Part shown: positions 837-21,533 of the stretch, one piece after another
How positions within the stretch are numbered: position 1 is the stretch's first letter
Layout: the number at the start of each line of letters is the position of its first letter
Virus record (IMG/VR): IMGVR_UViG_3300009545_000065
Coordinates: 1-21,999 of that record
DNA: 21,999 bases
From: a virus
Reading direction: 5' to 3' (one strand)
Translations under genes and position numbers: made by a program
The notes under the pieces: generated by a model
Seen by the model: only the letters and a program-made list of their open reading frames with translations
Databases searched by the model: none
What the model was told of the DNA's origin: nothing

Positions 837-1214
837 ATGATATCCTACACTGTCTCTGGTGATTTCAAGTCGACTGAACAGTTCTTGCAGAAAGCTGTGA
901 AACTGAACATCCTCGATATTCTGAAGTCGGCAGGACAAGAAGGCGTCGCGGCCCTTTCCTCGGCCACGCCGACAGACACTGGACTCGCTGCGGGTTCGTG
1001 GAGTTTCGACGTGTCGGCCAGAAACGGTAGGTACACGATCTACTGGACCAACACCGACGTAGAGTCAGACTTCCCAGTAGCGATCATGCTCCAGTATGGA
1101 TACGGAACCGGCACTGGAGGCTACGTTCAAGGCCGGGACTACATCAACCCGGCGATGGCACCGATATTTGACCGAATCGCCGAAAGGGTATGGAGGGCGG
1201 TGACTTCCGCATGA
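837..1214 (+). CDS. HK97 gp10-like tail-completion / head-tail connector protein
   Basis: Encodes 125 residues. The ATG at 837 follows a good ribosome binding site (AAAGGAG) located directly after the previous stop. An initial helical part (SAGQEGVAALSSATPTDTG) leads to a beta-rich core ending with YGYGTGTGGYVQGRDYINPA and a C-terminal helix. The pattern P-x-DTG-x-L-A-x-S followed by hhYGYGTGTGG and GRDYINPA is typical of the HK97 gp10-like family, which caps or completes the tail at the head-tail joint. The stop overlaps the tape measure start by ATGA, so the two are probably translationally coupled. The family call is by motif recognition only. Confidence 0.75.
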   Translation: MISYTVSGDFKSTEQFLQKAVKLNILDILKSAGQEGVAALSSATPTDTGLAAGSWSFDVSARNGRYTIYWTNTDVESDFPVAIMLQYGYGTGTGGYVQGRDYINPAMAPIFDRIAERVWRAVTSA

Positions 1215-4200
1215 GCAACATCGACCAGCGGGTCGTTCAAATGCTCTTCGACAATACGTCGTTTGAGCACAACGCCGCCGTCACACTCGGCACAATGGAC
1301 AAGCTGAACAAGGGTCTCAGCTTGGAAGGTGCCGCCAAGGGTTTTGCCAGTCTCGGCGAAGCAGTCAAATCCGTCACGATGGATCCTCTTGCCAACGGCG
1401 TGGATCACGTGGCGAGTCGATTCACCGCTTTGTCGGTGATCGGTTACACCGTTCTCTCGAATCTGACAAACAAGATCGTCGACGTTGGCCTGCAGATGGC
1501 CAAGTCCCTCACGATCGACCCGATCAAGGCTGGGTTCCAGAACTACGAAACCCAGATCAACGCGGTTCAGACGATTTTGGCGAACACGGCTTCTGAAGGT
1601 ACGAAGATCGGTGACGTCAACAAGGCCTTGGCTGAGTTGAACACCTACGCGAACCAGACGGTCTACAACTTCTCTGAGATGACTCAGAACATCGGCACCT
1701 TCACGGCCGCCGGTGTGGATCTGAAGACTTCGGTCGAGTCCATCAAGGGTATCGCCAACCTCGCGGCTCTGTCTGGCGCTAGTTCGCAGCAGGCTTCCAC
1801 CGCGATGTATCAGCTGTCCCAGGCCATCGCATCCGGCAAGGTTCAGCTTCAGGACTGGAACTCCGTCGTCAACGCTGGTCTCGGCGGCAAGGTGTTCCAG
1901 ACTGCTCTGGAGAACACCGCTCGAGCCGCTGGCACCAACATCGATGCGATCATCAAGAAGGCTGGAAGCTTCCGCAACAGTCTTCAAGAGGGTTGGTTGA
2001 CATCCGACATCCTCACGAAGACACTCTCTCAGTTCACTGGCGACCTCAGTGCTGCTCAGCTCAAGGCTATGGGCTTCACGGCTCAGCAGGCCAAGCAGAT
2101 TCAGGCTCTGGGTCAGACCGCACTCGGTTCTGCTACGCACATCAAGACGATGACGCAGCTTGCCGACGCGCTCAAGGAGGAGGTGGCAACCGCATATGGC
2201 GCGATCTTCAAGACGATCTTCGGCAACATTGATCAAGCGACAAACCTCTTCACCAAGGTCCACAACGTTGCTGAGAACGCACTCACCGGACCGGTCTACG
2301 CGCTGAACAACCTCCTGGAGGGATGGGCGAAGCTAGGCGGTAGGACCGAACTCATCAAGGCGTTCGGCCAAGCGTTCCAAGATCTCGGCTTGATCATGAA
2401 GCCGATCGGGGAAGCATTCAGAGACGTCTTCCCACCGGCTACCGCCCAGAGTTTGAAGCATCTGACAGACGTCTTCGAGCAGCTGACTGAAAAGTTCAAA
2501 ATAGGAGCGCATACTAGTGCTGATCTGAGGCAGATCTTCGACGGCCTCTTCTCCGCGGTGAAGATCGTCTACGATATTCTCGTGAAGTTGGGCCAGACAT
2601 TCGAAGCTGTCTTTGGTTCCTCCGTTTCCAGGGGATCGAGCAATCTGCTCGACTTCGGAGCTCGGGTTGGCGACTTCCTGGTCCGGCTCAAGGAAGCAGT
2701 GGAGACCGGGCAGAGGTTCAACGAGTTCTTCGTGAAGCTTCAGGAAGTTCTCCAGGTTCCGATCACCTTGGTCAAGGCTCTCGGTCTGCTCCTCAGGGAC
2801 TTGTTCGACAAGCTCGACGTTGGAGACAAGGCACAGAAGTCCATCGGTTCAGTCAAGGATTCTCTAAGTTCAGTTCTGAGCGAGAGCAAGCTTCTCGCCG
2901 CTGCCTTCGATTATGTCCGCGATCACATCGATGCCTTCTACCATGGTGTTCAGCCTTTGGCTGACAAGATCTCAAAAGCTTTTGAGAACATGGCCAAGAG
3001 CTTCACGAACGGATCAGCAGGCATCGACTTCACGGGTTTGTTGCGTGTTGTCGACACTGGTTTGTTCGGCGGCTTGATCGTGCTTCTGAAGAAGTTCGTG
3101 GACTACGTCGGAAGCGGTCACAAGCCTGGTGTCATCAACGGGTTCCTTGACACCATCAAGGAGTCGTTCGAGGGTCTTACCAAGACACTCGAGTCGATGC
3201 AGACAACGCTCAAAGCGGCCACTCTTCTCGAGATAGCCGCAGCGATAGCCATTCTTGCTGTCGCAGCCGACAAGCTTTCGGCCATCAATGGACCCGCTCT
3301 CGAACGGTCCACCACTGCGTTGGCTGTGATGTTCACCCAGCTGATAACTTCCATGGGTATATTCCAGAAGTTCATCGGTTCTGAAGGCTTCGTCAAAATG
3401 CCCGTCATGATGCTCTCTCTGATCTTGTTGGCGGGAGCTATCGATGTTCTTTCGGGTTCGGTCATAAAGCTCGGGAAGGAAGACTGGAACTCCCTCGCAA
3501 AGGGGTTGCTGGCCATCAGCGTCATGCTCACCACTTTGGCCTTCAGTGTCAACTTGATGGGCGATTCGAACCACATGATCGCTGTCGGTTTCGGCGTCGC
3601 GAGTATCGGCAAGGGTGTCAAAATCCTAGGCGATGTTCTGGTGCAACTCGGCGGGATCAGTTGGGAAGAACTCGGCAAAGGCCTCACCGGATTGGCGGGT
3701 GTCCTAGGCGCATTGACGCTTTTCTCGGTCATCGCTGACGCGGACACTGCTGGAGCCGGGACAGGTCTCGGAGTGACGATCCTGGCATACGGGATCTTGA
3801 TTCTGGCAAAAGCAGTAAAGGAAATCGGACAGTACAGTTGGACAACGATCGCCAAGGGACTCGACCTCATGGCGGGCAGTCTGGCTGCTATCGGTCTGGT
3901 TTTGAAGCTTGTTCCTCCGTCGTCGGTCTTCTCCGCTGCGGGGGTATTGATCGTCGCTTCTTCGCTCGGATTGATCGGCAATGCGCTGGACAAGATGGGC
4001 AAGGAAACCTGGAGTCAAGGCGCTCACGGTTTGGCTTTGATGGCTGGTGCTCTGACGCTCATCGCTGGGGCTCTCTACCTTCTTCCGCCGTCGTCGCTTC
4101 TCTCTGCGGCAGCGATCTTCATTGTCGCAGCATCTCTGGGGATGATCACTGACGCTCTCGGCAAAATGGGAGCTCAGAGTTGGACGGAGATAGCCAAGGG

Positions 4201-5668
4201 TCTGACCGAATTGGCGGGAGCACTGGTGCTCATCGCAGGTGCGGCCATACTCATGACGGAAGCACTTCCTGGAGCAGCTGCGCTTCTCGTTATGGCAGCA
4301 GCAATCGACATTTTGGCACCTGCGCTCAAAACCATGGGCGACATGTCGTGGGGGAACATCCTCTCGAGCCTCGTCGAGCTTGCGGGAGTCTTTGTCGTCT
4401 TGGCGCTGGGAGGCGCTCTGATCGAGCCAGTCATTCCGGTACTTTTCAGCCTCGCAGGAGCTGTTGCTCTCTTGGGGTTGGGTGCTTTGTCTGCTGGTTT
4501 GGGATTGGTCTTCCTCTCCACTGGTTATACGGCACTCGCAGTGGGAATGGCTGCGAACACCGCTAGTATGGTGTTTGCTATTACGTCATTCTTGAACCTG
4601 ATTCCCATCGCGGCGAAGCAATTCGCCCTGGGCTTGGTCGTCTTTGTGGAGACCTTGGCTCAATCAGCACCAGCGATCGCCAAGGCGTTCCTGACTCTGT
4701 TCAGCACGATTCTGGACACGCTAGGTAAACTGGTTCCGAAGGTCGTCGACCTCTTCCTCAAGTTGCTCACGCAACTGCTGCAAACTGCTGCCAAGTACAT
4801 TCCGCAATTGATAGACGCGGGTGTCAATCTGATCTCCGGGTTTCTCGAAGGTCTGGCACGCAACATGCCCAAGATCGTGCAGTCTGCTACAGACTTGATT
4901 GTCGCGTTCACCAAGGGCATCAGCGACAACCTGCCGAAGATCGTTCAATCGGCCTTCGACATGACGATCAAGTTCATCACATCGTTGGGGCAAGGGTTCA
5001 AGCAGAACACACCGAAGGTCGTCACCGCTCTCATCCAGATGGGCGGAGACATGATCGACGGGCTCATCCAAGGTCTCGAAGCTGGCGCGAGTAAAGTCGC
5101 TGACACGCTTCTGCAGATCGCCAAAGACTCCATCAAGGCGCCTCTCCACTGGCTGGGGATCAATTCCCCGTCCACGAGGTACGCAGAAATGGGTTTCTGG
5201 TGCATGGCCGGGTGGGGTATGGGTGTAGAGGACAATTCGGGCATAGTGATCGACGCGCATTCCAAGGTTGCGAAGAACGCTTTCGACGTCGTCTCGCAGA
5301 GCATGTCTTTGATTGGCGACCACTTCGACGCAGTGGAATTCAATCCGAAGATCAAGCCCGTTCTCGACATGAGCAACTTCAATGGGTCTGTGTTCGACGT
5401 GAGCGACCCAGCTCATCCGATCAACCTCAGCAACCCCGCTTCGTACTACGGAGCGACAAATGCCTCCGAGGGATATCTTCGAAACAACTCGAGGAACACC
5501 TCCACGGACAATACATTCAACCGGCAACCCACGACGCCGACATACAACTTCACACAGAACAACTACTCACCGAAGGCTCTGTCCGACACGGAAATCTATC
5601 GGCAGACCAACAACCAACTATCCGCTGTAAGGGGCACCCTTGTTTACCAAAGTGGAGGTACGCAATAG
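1211..5668 (+). CDS. Tail tape measure protein
   Basis: Encodes 1485 residues; this is the longest gene in the window and fixes tail length in siphoviruses. The ATG at 1211 overlaps the upstream stop (ATGA), and GGAGG lies 14 bases before it; an in-frame ATG at 1190 is the alternative. Residues about 100-300 (DPIKAGFQNYETQINAVQTI, then a Gln/Ala-rich helical stretch) match the conserved N-terminal tape measure domain. The middle is helical. Residues about 640-1110 are strongly hydrophobic and hold a roughly 57-residue tandem repeat described separately. The C-terminal part has PKIVQSATDLI-type amphipathic helices and the usual tape-measure ending around residue 1317, INSPSTRYAEMGFW. No tail-assembly chaperone pair lies directly upstream, which is unusual for this gene. 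Confidence 0.93.
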   Translation: MSNIDQRVVQMLFDNTSFEHNAAVTLGTMDKLNKGLSLEGAAKGFASLGEAVKSVTMDPLANGVDHVASRFTALSVIGYTVLSNLTNKIVDVGLQMAKSLTIDPIKAGFQNYETQINAVQTILANTASEGTKIGDVNKALAELNTYANQTVYNFSEMTQNIGTFTAAGVDLKTSVESIKGIANLAALSGASSQQASTAMYQLSQAIASGKVQLQDWNSVVNAGLGGKVFQTALENTARAAGTNIDAIIKKAGSFRNSLQEGWLTSDILTKTLSQFTGDLSAAQLKAMGFTAQQAKQIQALGQTALGSATHIKTMTQLADALKEEVATAYGAIFKTIFGNIDQATNLFTKVHNVAENALTGPVYALNNLLEGWAKLGGRTELIKAFGQAFQDLGLIMKPIGEAFRDVFPPATAQSLKHLTDVFEQLTEKFKIGAHTSADLRQIFDGLFSAVKIVYDILVKLGQTFEAVFGSSVSRGSSNLLDFGARVGDFLVRLKEAVETGQRFNEFFVKLQEVLQVPITLVKALGLLLRDLFDKLDVGDKAQKSIGSVKDSLSSVLSESKLLAAAFDYVRDHIDAFYHGVQPLADKISKAFENMAKSFTNGSAGIDFTGLLRVVDTGLFGGLIVLLKKFVDYVGSGHKPGVINGFLDTIKESFEGLTKTLESMQTTLKAATLLEIAAAIAILAVAADKLSAINGPALERSTTALAVMFTQLITSMGIFQKFIGSEGFVKMPVMMLSLILLAGAIDVLSGSVIKLGKEDWNSLAKGLLAISVMLTTLAFSVNLMGDSNHMIAVGFGVASIGKGVKILGDVLVQLGGISWEELGKGLTGLAGVLGALTLFSVIADADTAGAGTGLGVTILAYGILILAKAVKEIGQYSWTTIAKGLDLMAGSLAAIGLVLKLVPPSSVFSAAGVLIVASSLGLIGNALDKMGKETWSQGAHGLALMAGALTLIAGALYLLPPSSLLSAAAIFIVAASLGMITDALGKMGAQSWTEIAKGLTELAGALVLIAGAAILMTEALPGAAALLVMAAAIDILAPALKTMGDMSWGNILSSLVELAGVFVVLALGGALIEPVIPVLFSLAGAVALLGLGALSAGLGLVFLSTGYTALAVGMAANTASMVFAITSFLNLIPIAAKQFALGLVVFVETLAQSAPAIAKAFLTLFSTILDTLGKLVPKVVDLFLKLLTQLLQTAAKYIPQLIDAGVNLISGFLEGLARNMPKIVQSATDLIVAFTKGISDNLPKIVQSAFDMTIKFITSLGQGFKQNTPKVVTALIQMGGDMIDGLIQGLEAGASKVADTLLQIAKDSIKAPLHWLGINSPSTRYAEMGFWCMAGWGMGVEDNSGIVIDAHSKVAKNAFDVVSQSMSLIGDHFDAVEFNPKIKPVLDMSNFNGSVFDVSDPAHPINLSNPASYYGATNASEGYLRNNSRNTSTDNTFNRQPTTPTYNFTQNNYSPKALSDTEIYRQTNNQLSAVRGTLVYQSGGTQ
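3479..4530 (+). repeat. Six-unit hydrophobic protein repeat inside the tape measure gene
   Basis: Six consecutive units each open with a tryptophan, at tape measure residues 759, 818, 877, 934, 991 and 1047, so spacing is 59, 59, 57, 57 and 56. Units share the pattern W-x-x-hAKGL-x-x-hAGxL followed by two hydrophobic helices and a Gly/Lys turn. Units 3 and 4 also share LVPPSSVFSAAG / LLPPSSLLSAAA. The repeat is clear in protein but diverged in DNA, so it is old. It probably forms the membrane-active or coiled segment of the protein. Confidence 0.8.
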
Positions 5669-6476
5669 CCAGGGAGCCCTCCTCACGCTCCAGCTCGGTG
5701 ATACCTCGAATGGTTACAACGTCTTGGATATCACCGGGCTGGACCCCGTGAAGGCCACACTGGTCGGCAGTAGTTTCGCCAACCAGGATGGAGCGGTCTT
5801 CCAGTCTTCCCGACGAGACACTCGTCAGATCGGATTCAAAATAGGATTCGATGTCGACTACTCCACTACCTCGCTCAGGACATTGAGGAACAACCTCTAC
5901 ACGCTCTTCAGGACTGAGACCGAGGTTCAGCTCAAGTTCTACATGGAAGACTTCATCGACGGGCAGGAAGACGGCTACATCATCTATGGCCGTGTCGAAA
6001 GCTGTCAGTCGCCGATGTTCTCTCAGACTCCCGAAGTCGACGTCACCTTGATCTGCTACGACCCGGACTTCGTGGATCCCGTTCCCACCGTGGTCTCTGG
6101 TATGACGACCGGCGACCCGACGGCTACTCTGATCAACTACGCGGGTACAACCGAAACGGGTTACGTCTTCACGATCAACATCAACAGAACGTTGTCTGAA
6201 TTCGTGATCTACAACACGGATGGAAACAACGTGACCACGAGCATGGATGTGGTAAATCCGTTCTTGTCTGGTGATGTGGTCACGATCAGCACCGTTCCCG
6301 GCAACAAGTACGCGACTCTTCTCAGAAGCGGAGTCTCGAGCTCGATTCTCTACGCAGTGTCTCTTCAGTCAAACTGGGCGAAATTTGCTCCGGGGAACAA
6401 CTGGGTCAGAGCTTCTGCAGCGGGTGTCGGTGTTCCTTGCAGCATCTCGTACAACAAGCGGTTCGGTGCGCTCTGA
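5640..6476 (+). CDS. Distal tail (Dit-like) protein
   Basis: Encodes 278 residues and overlaps the end of the tape measure gene by 29 bases. The TTG start at 5640 is chosen because AAGGGG lies 6 bases before it; a GTG at 5652 lacks comparable spacing. The N-terminal half (TKVEVRNSQG, ITGLDPVKATL, a DTRQIGFKIGF strand, then a LRTLRNNLYTLF helix and YGRVESCQSPMF) is typical of the siphovirus distal tail family that forms the hub ring joining the tail tube to the baseplate. The C-terminal half is a beta sandwich ending SISYNKRFGAL. Position directly after the tape measure gene supports the call. The stop overlaps the next start by one base. Confidence 0.8.
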   Translation: MFTKVEVRNSQGALLTLQLGDTSNGYNVLDITGLDPVKATLVGSSFANQDGAVFQSSRRDTRQIGFKIGFDVDYSTTSLRTLRNNLYTLFRTETEVQLKFYMEDFIDGQEDGYIIYGRVESCQSPMFSQTPEVDVTLICYDPDFVDPVPTVVSGMTTGDPTATLINYAGTTETGYVFTININRTLSEFVIYNTDGNNVTTSMDVVNPFLSGDVVTISTVPGNKYATLLRSGVSSSILYAVSLQSNWAKFAPGNNWVRASAAGVGVPCSISYNKRFGAL

Positions 6477-17603: not shown

Positions 17604-20600
17604 ATGGATTTCTTTCGTGTGGCTACGAAAGAAACGCGGAACGGGAATGTCGAGATCAGTCCGGACTTCACTGTGGGCCGATCTAAAGATCTCATGGTAC
17701 GGGGCAGTTCGTTCTACGCGATCTGGAACGAAGCTCTCGGGCTTTGGTCTAAGGACGAGTACGACGTAGCGGCTCTGGTCGACCGTGTCCTGAACGAACA
17801 CGCTGACAAACTCCGTGATCAAGGCATCTCGTGCACCGTGAAAACTCTGACCTCCTTCGATTCGAACCGATGGAAGCAGTTCAAGGCCTTCATGAAGAGC
17901 GTGAGTGACAACTCACGTACGCTCGATTCCAGGGTCATGTTCGCCAGCACTCCTATAAAGCGGAGTGACTACGCGAGTCGTCGCCTCAACTACGACATGG
18001 CCGAGGGCAGCATTGCGGCCTACGAGGAGTTGGTGAGTCTTCTCTACATCCCCGAGGAGCGAGCCAAGTTCGAGTGGGCCATCGGTGCCATCATCGCCGG
18101 GGACGCCAAGAAGATCGAGAAGATGCTGGTCTTCTTCGGTGCCCCCGGCACTGGCAAGTCGACGGTGATGAATCTCGCGATCAAGCTGTTCGGTGGGTTG
18201 GTCGAATTTGGGGGCTACGTCTCTACGTTCGACTGTTCGGCTCTGGTCAGCGGCGGCAGCGCTTTCGCCATGGATGCGTTCAGGGATGAACCGTTGTTGT
18301 CGATCGATCAGGACACCGACCTGTCCGGGATCAGGGACAACAGCACGCTGAACTCGGTGATCTCGAAAGAGATTCTTCGAGTGAACGAGAAGTTCAAGCC
18401 GACATACAACTCGCGCATCCAGTCGTTTCTGTTCGTCGGCACGAACAAGCCAGTCAAATTCTCGGACGCGAAGAACGGGTTGATTCGTCGCATCATCGAT
18501 GTGAACCCGACTGGCGAGACGCACGAGGTGAACCGGTACCACACCTTGGTGCAGCAGACGGAGTTCGAGCTGGGCGCTATCGCGCAACACTGCTTGAATG
18601 TCTATCGATCGATGGGCAAGAACTACTACAACTCGTACAAGCCCGTCGCGATGATGCTGCAGACGGACGTGTTCTTCAACTTCGTCGAGGCGTACTTCGA
18701 CGTCTTCAAGGCGCAGGACAACACGACCCTCAAGCAAGCGTACGCGATGTACAAGCAATACTGTGTCGACGCTGAGATCGAGAAGGTCCTGCCGCAGTAC
18801 AAGTTCCGGGAGGAATTGAAGAACTACTTCTCGGAGTTCGTCGACAGAAAGTACATGGACGGGGCAGAGGTTAAGAGCTTCTACCAAGGGTTCACAGCTC
18901 AGCCGTACAAGGCTCCGTTGAAATCGAATCCGACGGTGTACTCGTTGGTCCTCGAGGAGACGTCGTCCGTCTTCGACACCACCTACGCGGACCTACCGGC
19001 GCAGTACGGTAAAGAAGACGAGACCCCTTCGAAGTACTGGACTGACGAGGAACGCGTGATCCGCGGCAAGTTGCAGAAACCTCGTCCGGATCAAGTCGTC
19101 AACACCGTCCTGGGAGACCTGGACACCTCTCGGCTGCATTTCGTGAAGCTTCCCGAGAACCACATCGTCATCGACTTCGACTTGAAGGGCGACAATGGCG
19201 AGAAGGACCTACAGCGCAACCTGGAAGCAGCAAGCCTCTGGCCTGCCACCTATGCCGAGCTTAGTAAGTCCGGCAGCGGCGTGCACCTCCACTACATCTG
19301 GACAGGAAGTGACGCTGCAGATCTTGCTCCTGAATATTCACCGGGAATTGAGATCAAGGTATTTCGGGGTGGATCTTCGCTGCGACGAAAACTATCGAAG
19401 TGTAATGCGGTGGCTGTCGCATCTCTCGGTAGTGGACTCCCCTTCAGAGAGAAGAAGCCCGTGATCGAAAACAAGACCCTGCAGAGCGAGAAGGGTCTGA
19501 GGGATCTCATCGAGAGGAATCTCAGAAAGGAGATCCATCCCGGCACGAAGCCGTCCATCGAGTTCATCGGAAAGATTCTCGATGAGGCTTACGAGAGCGA
19601 CTTGCCGTATGACGTGACGGACATGCGTGGCAGAATCCTCACGTTCGCGAACAACAGCTCTCACCAAGCCGACTTCTGCCTCAAGGCCGTGCAGAAGATG
19701 AAGTTCAAGTCTGACGTCTCGTCCGAGGACATCCCGAACACGAAGCATGGCATCGGAGTCCCGATCGTCATCTTCGACTGTGAGGTCTACCCAAACCTCT
19801 TCGCGATCTGCTGGAAGTACAAGGGTGAAACCGAAGGCGTTCGGATGCTCAATCCGACTCCGGCCGAGGTGGAGCGACTCTTCCAGTTCCGGCTGATCGG
19901 GTTCAACAACCGCGAATACGACAACCACATCATGTGGGCGCGGATGCTCGGATACGACAACATGCAGCTCTATCTTCTGTCGAAGAGAATCCTCGCCAAG
20001 GATCGCGACGCGATGTTCGGGGAAGCCTACTCGCTCTCTTACGCCGACGCCTACGACTTCGCCACGAAGAAGCAGAGCCTCAAAAAGTGGGAGATCGAGC
20101 TCGGGATTCATCACATGGAGATGGACCTTCCGTGGGATGAACCGGTTCCAGACGACCGAGTCGAAGACGTCCTCGACTACTGCATGAACGACGTGTTCGG
20201 CACGGAAGCCGTGGTCGACCACTGCGACGCAGACTTCTTGTCGCGGCAGATCCTTGCCGAGATGAGCGGTCTCACCGTGAACGATCCCACTCGCAAGCAC
20301 GCGGGGCGGATCATCTTCGGGAATGTCAGGGATCCGCAGAAGGATTTCATCTACACGGATCTCAGCGAGATGTTCCCGGGCTACGAATTCGATCCCTACG
20401 CCTTGAAAGACAAGAGTACATACCGGGATGAAGTGGTCGGTGAAGGCGGTTACGTCTACGCCGAACCCGGCATGTACGAGAACGTCGCGCTACTGGACGT
20501 CGCTTCGATGCACCCCACGTCCATCATCCAGCTGGACCTCTTCGGGCCGTACACGGAGAAGTTCGCCAAGCTGTACCACGGTCGACTGGCGATCAAGGGC

Positions 20601-21533
20601 GCGATGAACGCCTGGAAGAACGGATGGGACGATCAGGCGGCGAGGCTCATCAACGAGGCTTCCCAGCATCTGCCAGGTCTGGTGGTCACGAAGGCCAACG
20701 CCCACGCCCTGTCCGATGCGCTGAAGCTCGTGATCAACTCCATCTACGGCTACACCGCGGCGTCGTTCCCGAACCTGTTCAGGGATCTTCGCAACAAGGA
20801 CAACATCGTCGCCAAGCGCGGTGCACTGTTCATGATCGACCTGAAGAACTACATCCAGAGTCTTGGCTACTCGGTCGTGCACATCAAGACCGACTCGGTC
20901 AAGATCCCCGATGCCGACGACGACATCATCGCGAAGGTGATGGAGTTCGGGCGTCGTTACGGATACGACTTCGAGCACGAGAAGACTTTCGAGAAGTTCT
21001 GCCTCGTGAACGACGCCGTGTACATCGCCAAGATGCAGGAGCCGGACGAGAAGACCGGCCAGATCTGGACAGCCACCGGTGCTGAGTTCGCTCATCCGGT
21101 GGTCTTCAAGGCACTGTTCAGCGGAGAGGAGATCACGTTCGACGACTTGTGCGAAACCAAGTCGGTTCAAGCAGGCGCCATGTACCTCGACTTCGGAGAC
21201 GGCGAATCCACCCCCGCATCTCCGAGGAAGGGTCTGTACCACGTCGGGCGGGTCGGCCGTTTCGTGCCGGTCTACGAAAGCTGCGGCGGAGGAAAGCTTC
21301 TCCGGATCAAGGACGATCGTAGCTACGCAGTGACCGGAACCAAGGATTACTGCTGGCTCGAGTCTGACATGGTCAAAGACCGCGAAGGTCCGGTTCTCGG
21401 AAAGTTCAAGGACGTGATGGAGTTGCCGATCACCGACGGCTCGTTCATCGCCATGGACTACTACGAGGAACTCGTGTTCAACGCGCAGGAGACGATCGAG
21501 AAGTTCGGCGACTACCACGAATTCGTGAAGTGA
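17604..21533 (+). CDS. Fused helicase, primase-like and family B DNA polymerase replication protein
   Basis: Encodes 1309 residues; the ATG follows AAAGGAGG. Residues about 1-400 are a D5/SF3-type helicase: Walker A GAPGTGKST at 179-187, acidic block DEPLLSIDQD at 228-237, LFVGTNKP with sensor N281, and an arginine finger GLIRR at 295-296. Residues about 490-625 resemble an archaeo-eukaryotic primase: IVIDFDL with D524 and D526, SGSGVHLHY with H561, and GIEIKVF with E583. Residues about 715-880 are a DEDDy exonuclease: FDCE (D725, E727), NNREYDN (D773) and YCMND (Y859, D863). The polymerase has motif A DVASMHPTSII (D965), motif B KLVINSIYG (1041-1049) and motif C KTDSV (D1097). It should unwind, prime and copy phage DNA with proofreading. 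The middle domain is the least certain. Confidence 0.9.
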   Translation: MDFFRVATKETRNGNVEISPDFTVGRSKDLMVRGSSFYAIWNEALGLWSKDEYDVAALVDRVLNEHADKLRDQGISCTVKTLTSFDSNRWKQFKAFMKSVSDNSRTLDSRVMFASTPIKRSDYASRRLNYDMAEGSIAAYEELVSLLYIPEERAKFEWAIGAIIAGDAKKIEKMLVFFGAPGTGKSTVMNLAIKLFGGLVEFGGYVSTFDCSALVSGGSAFAMDAFRDEPLLSIDQDTDLSGIRDNSTLNSVISKEILRVNEKFKPTYNSRIQSFLFVGTNKPVKFSDAKNGLIRRIIDVNPTGETHEVNRYHTLVQQTEFELGAIAQHCLNVYRSMGKNYYNSYKPVAMMLQTDVFFNFVEAYFDVFKAQDNTTLKQAYAMYKQYCVDAEIEKVLPQYKFREELKNYFSEFVDRKYMDGAEVKSFYQGFTAQPYKAPLKSNPTVYSLVLEETSSVFDTTYADLPAQYGKEDETPSKYWTDEERVIRGKLQKPRPDQVVNTVLGDLDTSRLHFVKLPENHIVIDFDLKGDNGEKDLQRNLEAASLWPATYAELSKSGSGVHLHYIWTGSDAADLAPEYSPGIEIKVFRGGSSLRRKLSKCNAVAVASLGSGLPFREKKPVIENKTLQSEKGLRDLIERNLRKEIHPGTKPSIEFIGKILDEAYESDLPYDVTDMRGRILTFANNSSHQADFCLKAVQKMKFKSDVSSEDIPNTKHGIGVPIVIFDCEVYPNLFAICWKYKGETEGVRMLNPTPAEVERLFQFRLIGFNNREYDNHIMWARMLGYDNMQLYLLSKRILAKDRDAMFGEAYSLSYADAYDFATKKQSLKKWEIELGIHHMEMDLPWDEPVPDDRVEDVLDYCMNDVFGTEAVVDHCDADFLSRQILAEMSGLTVNDPTRKHAGRIIFGNVRDPQKDFIYTDLSEMFPGYEFDPYALKDKSTYRDEVVGEGGYVYAEPGMYENVALLDVASMHPTSIIQLDLFGPYTEKFAKLYHGRLAIKGAMNAWKNGWDDQAARLINEASQHLPGLVVTKANAHALSDALKLVINSIYGYTAASFPNLFRDLRNKDNIVAKRGALFMIDLKNYIQSLGYSVVHIKTDSVKIPDADDDIIAKVMEFGRRYGYDFEHEKTFEKFCLVNDAVYIAKMQEPDEKTGQIWTATGAEFAHPVVFKALFSGEEITFDDLCETKSVQAGAMYLDFGDGESTPASPRKGLYHVGRVGRFVPVYESCGGGKLLRIKDDRSYAVTGTKDYCWLESDMVKDREGPVLGKFKDVMELPITDGSFIAMDYYEELVFNAQETIEKFGDYHEFVK

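Follow-up and report, generated by a model that had tools for sequence, protein, structure and literature searches.

The 21,999-nucleotide stretch of viral DNA analysed here (the window, positions 1 to 21,999 of IMG/VR record IMGVR_UViG_3300009545_000065) encodes a tape measure protein (TMP) as its longest listed ORF, with a tail completion/Neck1-like gene overlapping its start and a distal tail protein (Dit)-like gene downstream (Table 1). The TMP was matched to Pfam TMP_3 at 63.8 bits (cut-off 41) and to phrog_4372, tail length tape measure protein, at 1474 bits, while the residues of the upstream product encoded from 861 to 1193 matched phrog_5 (E 3e-9). TMP residues are numbered throughout from the ORF start at 1190; an alternative start is Met8 at window position 1211, which would give 1485 aa and whose equivalent is the start of the annotated relatives. 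Nine named relatives, 31-42% identical to the TMP in full-length alignments, belong to phages of Streptomyces (Bingvirus, Rimavirus), Arthrobacter (Mudcatvirus, Gordonvirus, and one unclassified), Gordonia, and Bifidobacterium. At the sequence level, the whole TMP showed weak similarity to two solved tail proteins: its N part resembled 9m8o_M (E 0.00048), and residues 871-1370 resembled the 80alpha TMP 6v8i_CF (E 0.0013). Elsewhere in the window, a promoter-like element near GGCTATAATGAGACCCCT is found in five copies before small ORFs (9413, 9830, 10595, 11093, and 14267, + strand; 0.02 expected by chance) and, when read through, encodes a GYNETPTERTP-like start common to several listed ORFs. 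At the nucleotide level, RosaAsantewaa shares 75% identity in three pieces covering 9% of the window.

Table 1. Coordinates of the genes, domains, and repeat units described in the window
Feature	Position	Strand	Evidence or remark
Tail completion/Neck1-like gene	837..1214	+	125 aa, ATG at 837; overlaps TMP start
Tape measure protein (TMP)	1190..5668	+	1492 aa from ORF start; Pfam TMP_3, phrog_4372
N-terminal TMP_3 domain	1604..2095	+	Residues 139-302; Pfam match
Unit 0, without Trp	3251..3445	+	Residues 688-752; unit HMM
Unit 1, W766	3446..3622	+	Unit HMM
Unit 2, W825	3623..3799	+	Unit HMM; extra copies in L025 resemble this unit
Unit 3, W884	3800..3967	+	Unit HMM
Unit 4, W941	3968..4138	+	Unit HMM
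Unit 5, W998	4139..4309	+	Unit HMM
Unit 6, W1054	4310..4480	+	Unit HMM
Second TMP repeat	4604..5077	+	Pro every 22 residues (P1139, 1161, 1183, 1205, 1227, 1249), then P1275
Distal tail protein (Dit)-like gene	5640..6476	+	phrog_33, E 1.6e-23
1309-aa ORF	17604..21533	+	Matches phage DNA primase/polymerase genes

The central part of the TMP carries a repeat marked by six Trp residues, whose codons run from 3485 to 4349 and whose spacings of 59, 59, 57, 57, and 56 residues agree with the original prediction. A 6-step Trp chain with steps of 55-60 residues occurred in 0 of 100,000 random placements of the 12 Trp of the protein, the longest chain being 5, seen twice. Comparison of residues 688-1105 with themselves gave a peak at lag 57, the best lag between 50 and 65 scoring 0.150 against a mean of -0.425 (sd 0.071, maximum -0.106) in 500 shuffles. 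The hydrophobic character claimed for the stretch was likewise confirmed, with 70% AILMFVWG and 10% charged residues. Its extent had to be revised: the six Trp units stand, but a seventh unit lacking Trp (unit 0) precedes the point at which the repeat had been taken to begin. Identity between units within the window's array is 18-48%, which makes the repeat an old one and not the product of a recent tandem duplication. The Pro-repeat segment that follows the array in the same protein has 22 additional residues in three out of four relatives from Arthrobacter.

Two structure predictions, one of residues 600-1311 from 83 sequences (pLDDT 61.5, pTM 0.34) and one of residues 676-1103 from 102 sequences (pLDDT 54.5, pTM 0.36), are of low confidence and agree in their helix boundaries, with two helices per unit except for unit 6 of the second model, which is one long helix. 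In both models, the first helix of units 1-6 begins with the Trp itself. The units could thus tentatively be described as helix pairs, the Trp, where present, opening the first helix, and the expectation that helix phase would follow the repeat was upheld in both of these low-confidence predictions. Residues 1138-1310, after the array and including the 22-residue Pro repeat, were predicted as a single long helix. A Foldseek search of the first model yielded no PDB match at E 0.001 or better. A Foldseek comparison with viral models yielded 13 matches at E 0.001 or below, nine of them named tape measure proteins and four nameless. With VIA-align, the top fold match of the second model reached Z 6.9 with an rmsd of 11.6 for 299 aligned residues, which the notes of that tool describe as common for helical repeats; overall, no fold match was firm.

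Relatives of the TMP were gathered by scans for conserved patterns, taking the best 80 matches of each scan. The N-terminal part was matched by 206 ORFs from 209 listed loci, of which 41 incomplete at the 3' end, one incomplete at the 5' end, and another 12 that were duplicates were dropped, leaving 152 complete and distinct TMPs; this set includes near-identical phages (L015-L017 are one phage), two ORFs as short as 521 and 560 aa, and several host names that are metagenome bins. The array occurs across several bacterial groups, both in phages and in prophages. By direct counting, 91 of the 152 listed TMPs have seven units, 25 have six, 7 have eight or nine, and 29 have between zero and five. 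The units at both ends could be recognised in 127 of them (one or both being missing in 25), and the span between these ends gave seven units in 97, six in 21, eight in two, nine in three, and five in four. The last class is not trusted, as direct counts of its members gave nine (L047), six (L190 and L198), and four (L187). Most spans fell at whole-unit steps, namely 290-299 (21 TMPs), 345-358 (95), 429 (2), and 470-471 (3) residues, the remainder lying at 331 (1), 364 (1), and 233-248 (4). After removal of near-duplicates, 81 of 108 listed TMPs had seven units by span. The Lactococcus phage CHPC971 TMP (1998 aa) gave six unit matches, two of them above 20 bits. L047, from Bifidobacterium phage BitterVaud1, has a post-array segment of 435 rather than 194 residues.

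The 91 TMPs with a direct count of seven, a group selected for regular spacing, have a span of 353.5 aa with an sd of only 2.0, their mean unit spacings being, in order, 64.2, 59.5, 59.1, 57.2, 57.2, and 56.4 residues; the unit-0 segment measured 63 residues in every one of 26 aligned TMPs. The Trp is kept less strictly than this length. It lies within two residues of its column in 415 of the 546 units 1-6 of the same TMPs (76%) and in unit 0 of none of the 91; a count over all 906 units, unit 0 included, gave 63%. The regular spacing of the units described as Trp-led holds, but the Trp is not their best-kept feature. This pattern bears in both directions on the main rival to the interpretation developed below, chaperone binding during assembly, in which a tail assembly chaperone would wrap each unit with the Trp-led loop as its landmark, and the stoichiometry of the chaperone would fix the number of units. 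Its frequency in units 1-6 agrees with such docking sites and its absence from unit 0 does not. The discussion in the phage TP901-1 study (PMC5099701) and Belcaid 2011 (PMC3271669) tie hydrophobic regions and aromatic landmarks of TMPs to the binding of chaperones or auxiliary proteins, and so hydrophobic a stretch would presumably require shielding before assembly. Docking as the reason for the repeat is a real if minority possibility, and one compatible with later insertion into a membrane.

The individual units also differ by position. When unit profiles trained on 24 prophage TMPs were applied to 67 phage TMPs, and the reverse, the unit was assigned to its own position in 329 of 469 phage units and in 142 of 168 prophage units (chance 1/7). 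Units 0 and 6 were placed correctly in 91 of 91 held-out TMPs and unit 5 in 89, whereas the inner units of phage TMPs were often misplaced, unit 1 being correct in 38, unit 3 in 15, and unit 4 in 17 of the 67. End units that are always placed correctly and inner units that often are not indicate fixed ends and a shifted middle. A few lineages have gained whole units. For instance, units 3 and 4 are 71, 61, and 68% identical in L069, L025, and L073, respectively, as after a tandem duplication, each of these TMPs having nine units; extra units in the middle of the array are seen in L047 and L157 too.

The original prediction was that unit number sets tail length, so that gain or loss of a unit would change the tail in fixed steps. 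Array length does change mostly in whole units; the dependence of tail length on them was not supported. Total TMP length ranges from 1400 to 3182 aa among the 127 listed TMPs with both end units, and the seven-unit class by span (97 of these) covers 1466-3182 aa, largely the constancy of number across differing lengths that speaks against such a role, with TMP length taken as a proxy for tail length and some of the extra C-terminal length possibly globular. The array accounts for 0.6% of the variance in TMP length (1.1% without the four doubtful five-unit rows), the N part for 8%, and the C part for 91%, and unit number correlates with TMP length at 0.06 (0.13 without those rows). Most relatives retain about seven copies while the rest of the TMP doubles in length, so the array probably does not provide the adjustable section of the tail ruler.

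Published tail lengths can be set beside these values. Seven units are present in the TMPs of Scarif (1830 aa), GoblinVoyage (1742 aa), Doxi13 (1742 aa), and TaidaOne (1828 aa), whose tails are reported as 254 +/- 10 nm (PMC11536984), 261 nm and 248 nm (both PMC11385150), and 158-163 nm (n = 2; PMC9670994), respectively. With a rise of 0.15 nm per residue the TaidaOne tail should reach 274 nm, far above the value from its two measured particles. At the same rise, a tail of about 224 nm would be predicted for the phage of the window. A reading of the units as tape marks, perhaps with each unit covering roughly two rings of the tube (87 A, from 57.8 aa at 1.5 A each, the tube rise being 38-43 A; PMC9022992), would gain from the whole-unit steps, from the duplicated units 3 and 4, and from a TP901-1 deletion of Tm2-3 in a hydrophobic region, reported to shorten the tail from 118 to 107.6 nm (PMC5099701). 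The Douge TMP, reported to extend over 64 rings with 1699 aa, or 26.5 aa per ring (PMC13033339), corresponds to about 2.2 rings per unit and gives no exact ring match, and the two-ring phase was left unsupported. With the array contributing about 1% of length variance and the same seven units accompanying tails of such different lengths, a ruler made of countable units has largely failed already on the length proxy and appears improbable.

The composition of the array sets it apart from the remainder of the protein, charged residues making up 0.10 of the array against 0.19-0.20 in the rest of the 91 seven-unit TMPs. A median of 13 of the 14 helix zones (range 9-14) have a best 19-residue window above KD 1.6; by this measure, which consists of Kyte-Doolittle windows only, the helices are hydrophobic enough to span a membrane. 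Both helices were shown, on sequence grounds, to carry Type 2-like heptads, with large a/d and small e/g residues (0.89/0.71 in helix A and 0.83/0.77 in helix B in the best register), a pattern described for helical barrels (PMC11288890, PMC6175849), although Type 2 sequences are reported to collapse as well (PMC6175849). The best-register score was 0.835 for helix A and 0.934 for helix B against 0.62 in shuffles, the 546 helices of each kind coming from 91 related TMPs and not being independent. The pattern did not rise above shuffles in 51 hydrophobic stretches taken from six Nuo subunits of E. coli (0.616 against 0.612 when shuffled), the margin over shuffles being 0.21-0.33 for the array and 0.004 for Nuo. 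Pieces of other helices from the same TMP scored 0.60-0.62, which is 0.11-0.12 above shuffles, indicating that the pattern is stronger in the array without being unique to it. The outward b/c/f positions are 61-69% hydrophobic (A and G counted), compared with 11% of 18 positions in a single helix of a designed soluble barrel. A profile of the array matched designed barrels at E 1.3e-10 in a loose alignment (accuracy 0.51), scoring 43.4 bits where 120 permutations of its columns reached no more than 2.8; the order of columns therefore matters, although any heptad profile could behave in this way.

These heptads count against chaperone docking as a full account, as binding alone does not require them on both helices. 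They would suit hydrophobic helix pairs that merely pack copies of the TMP inside the tail with no role at a membrane, as would the strict length (sd 2.0 of 353.5), and the TMP of Douge is reported to be a trimer (PMC13033339). Hydrophobic outward positions would nevertheless be disfavoured by a negatively charged inner tube wall such as that described for Douge (PMC13033339), and elsewhere in the TMP more charged helices suffice (0.19-0.20), which makes a simple filler of the lumen unlikely.

The near-constant number and length, the position identity of the end units, the membrane-like hydrophobicity, and the heptads suggest instead one working assembly. We hold with moderate confidence that the array is a fixed-number module of seven two-helix units that is membrane-active at DNA entry, its number (six, eight, and nine also occur among the listed TMPs) and length being held nearly fixed because it would work as a single membrane-active assembly. 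In the virion, the array would lie inside the tail tube along with the remaining TMP, its own length presumably adding to the tape, although most of the difference in length between relatives lies C-terminal to it. At ejection, the TMP would leave the tube and the array could enter the host cytoplasmic membrane as helical hairpins, which may help to form or line the path of the DNA; the array may in this manner help to push viral DNA through the bacterial membrane. By analogy with published accounts of TMPs, the membrane is the likeliest site of action. In phage Douge, a channel-like structure crossing the envelope is assigned to the trimeric TMP by its authors (PMC13033339), the first hydrophobic TMP region of TP901-1 is reported to be required for infectivity (PMC5099701), and a TMP-related effector has been found with lipid membranes (PMC11126660). 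The TP901-1 authors, however, could not tie the hydrophobic regions to membrane insertion and suggested chaperone binding (PMC5099701).

A more specific form of the membrane-active module, in which 14 helices, as seven hairpins from a single TMP or from its copies combined, would close into an antiparallel Type 2 barrel in the host membrane that could pass double-stranded DNA, is speculative and rather unlikely. Simple geometry, assuming 9.5 A between helix axes and a helix radius of 5 A, puts the lumen at roughly 33 A with 14 helices, 27 A with 12, and 21 A with 10. Trusted counts are at least six units among the listed relatives with both end units, and six units would be close to the smallest such ring admitting B-DNA. 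If the barrel were real, repeat number would be set by channel width and not by tail length. How long-tailed phages move DNA across the cytoplasmic membrane is an unsolved problem for which the TMP is the usual suspect, its active part being undefined. The array offers a precise segment for study and separates the ruler part of the TMP from its probable membrane part.

No constant-number array of 57-residue units in a TMP was found in a literature search conducted mostly at the level of titles and the beginnings of abstracts, with few subscription journals. The closest systems are the TMPs of TP901-1 (PMC5099701) and Douge (PMC13033339), which are likewise long, have a length tied to that of the tail, and contain hydrophobic regions thought to meet a membrane or a chaperone. 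They differ in that TP901-1 is described with two separate hydrophobic regions of three predicted spans each (PMC5099701) and Douge with two transmembrane regions (PMC13033339), whereas the array described here is one block of seven like units whose spacing hardly varies. The TMPs of Belcaid 2011 (PMC3271669), which have Trp/Phe repeats of 11 residues, are similar in their aromatic-marked units and in the reported duplication and loss of units, but here the unit measures 57-59 residues, is predicted as a hydrophobic helix pair, and is nearly constant in number. The consecutive Trp spacings in the TMP of the window (46, 110, 387, 59, 59, 57, 57, 56, 267, 16, and 5) include none of 11 or 18, considering Trp only. 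In addition, the Streptomyces effectors Tme and Sle1 (PMC11126660, PMC13277306) are TMP-like, with predicted transmembrane helices and reported membrane association, and differ in belonging to bacterial contractile-injection systems rather than serving as phage tail rulers. The designed single-chain barrel sc-apCC-6-SLLA (PDB 8qae; PMC11288890) shares large a/d residues, small e/g residues, and antiparallel linked helices with the array. It is soluble and has charged b/c/f positions (PMC11288890) where those of the array are mostly hydrophobic, and the likeness is one of pattern, not of ancestry.
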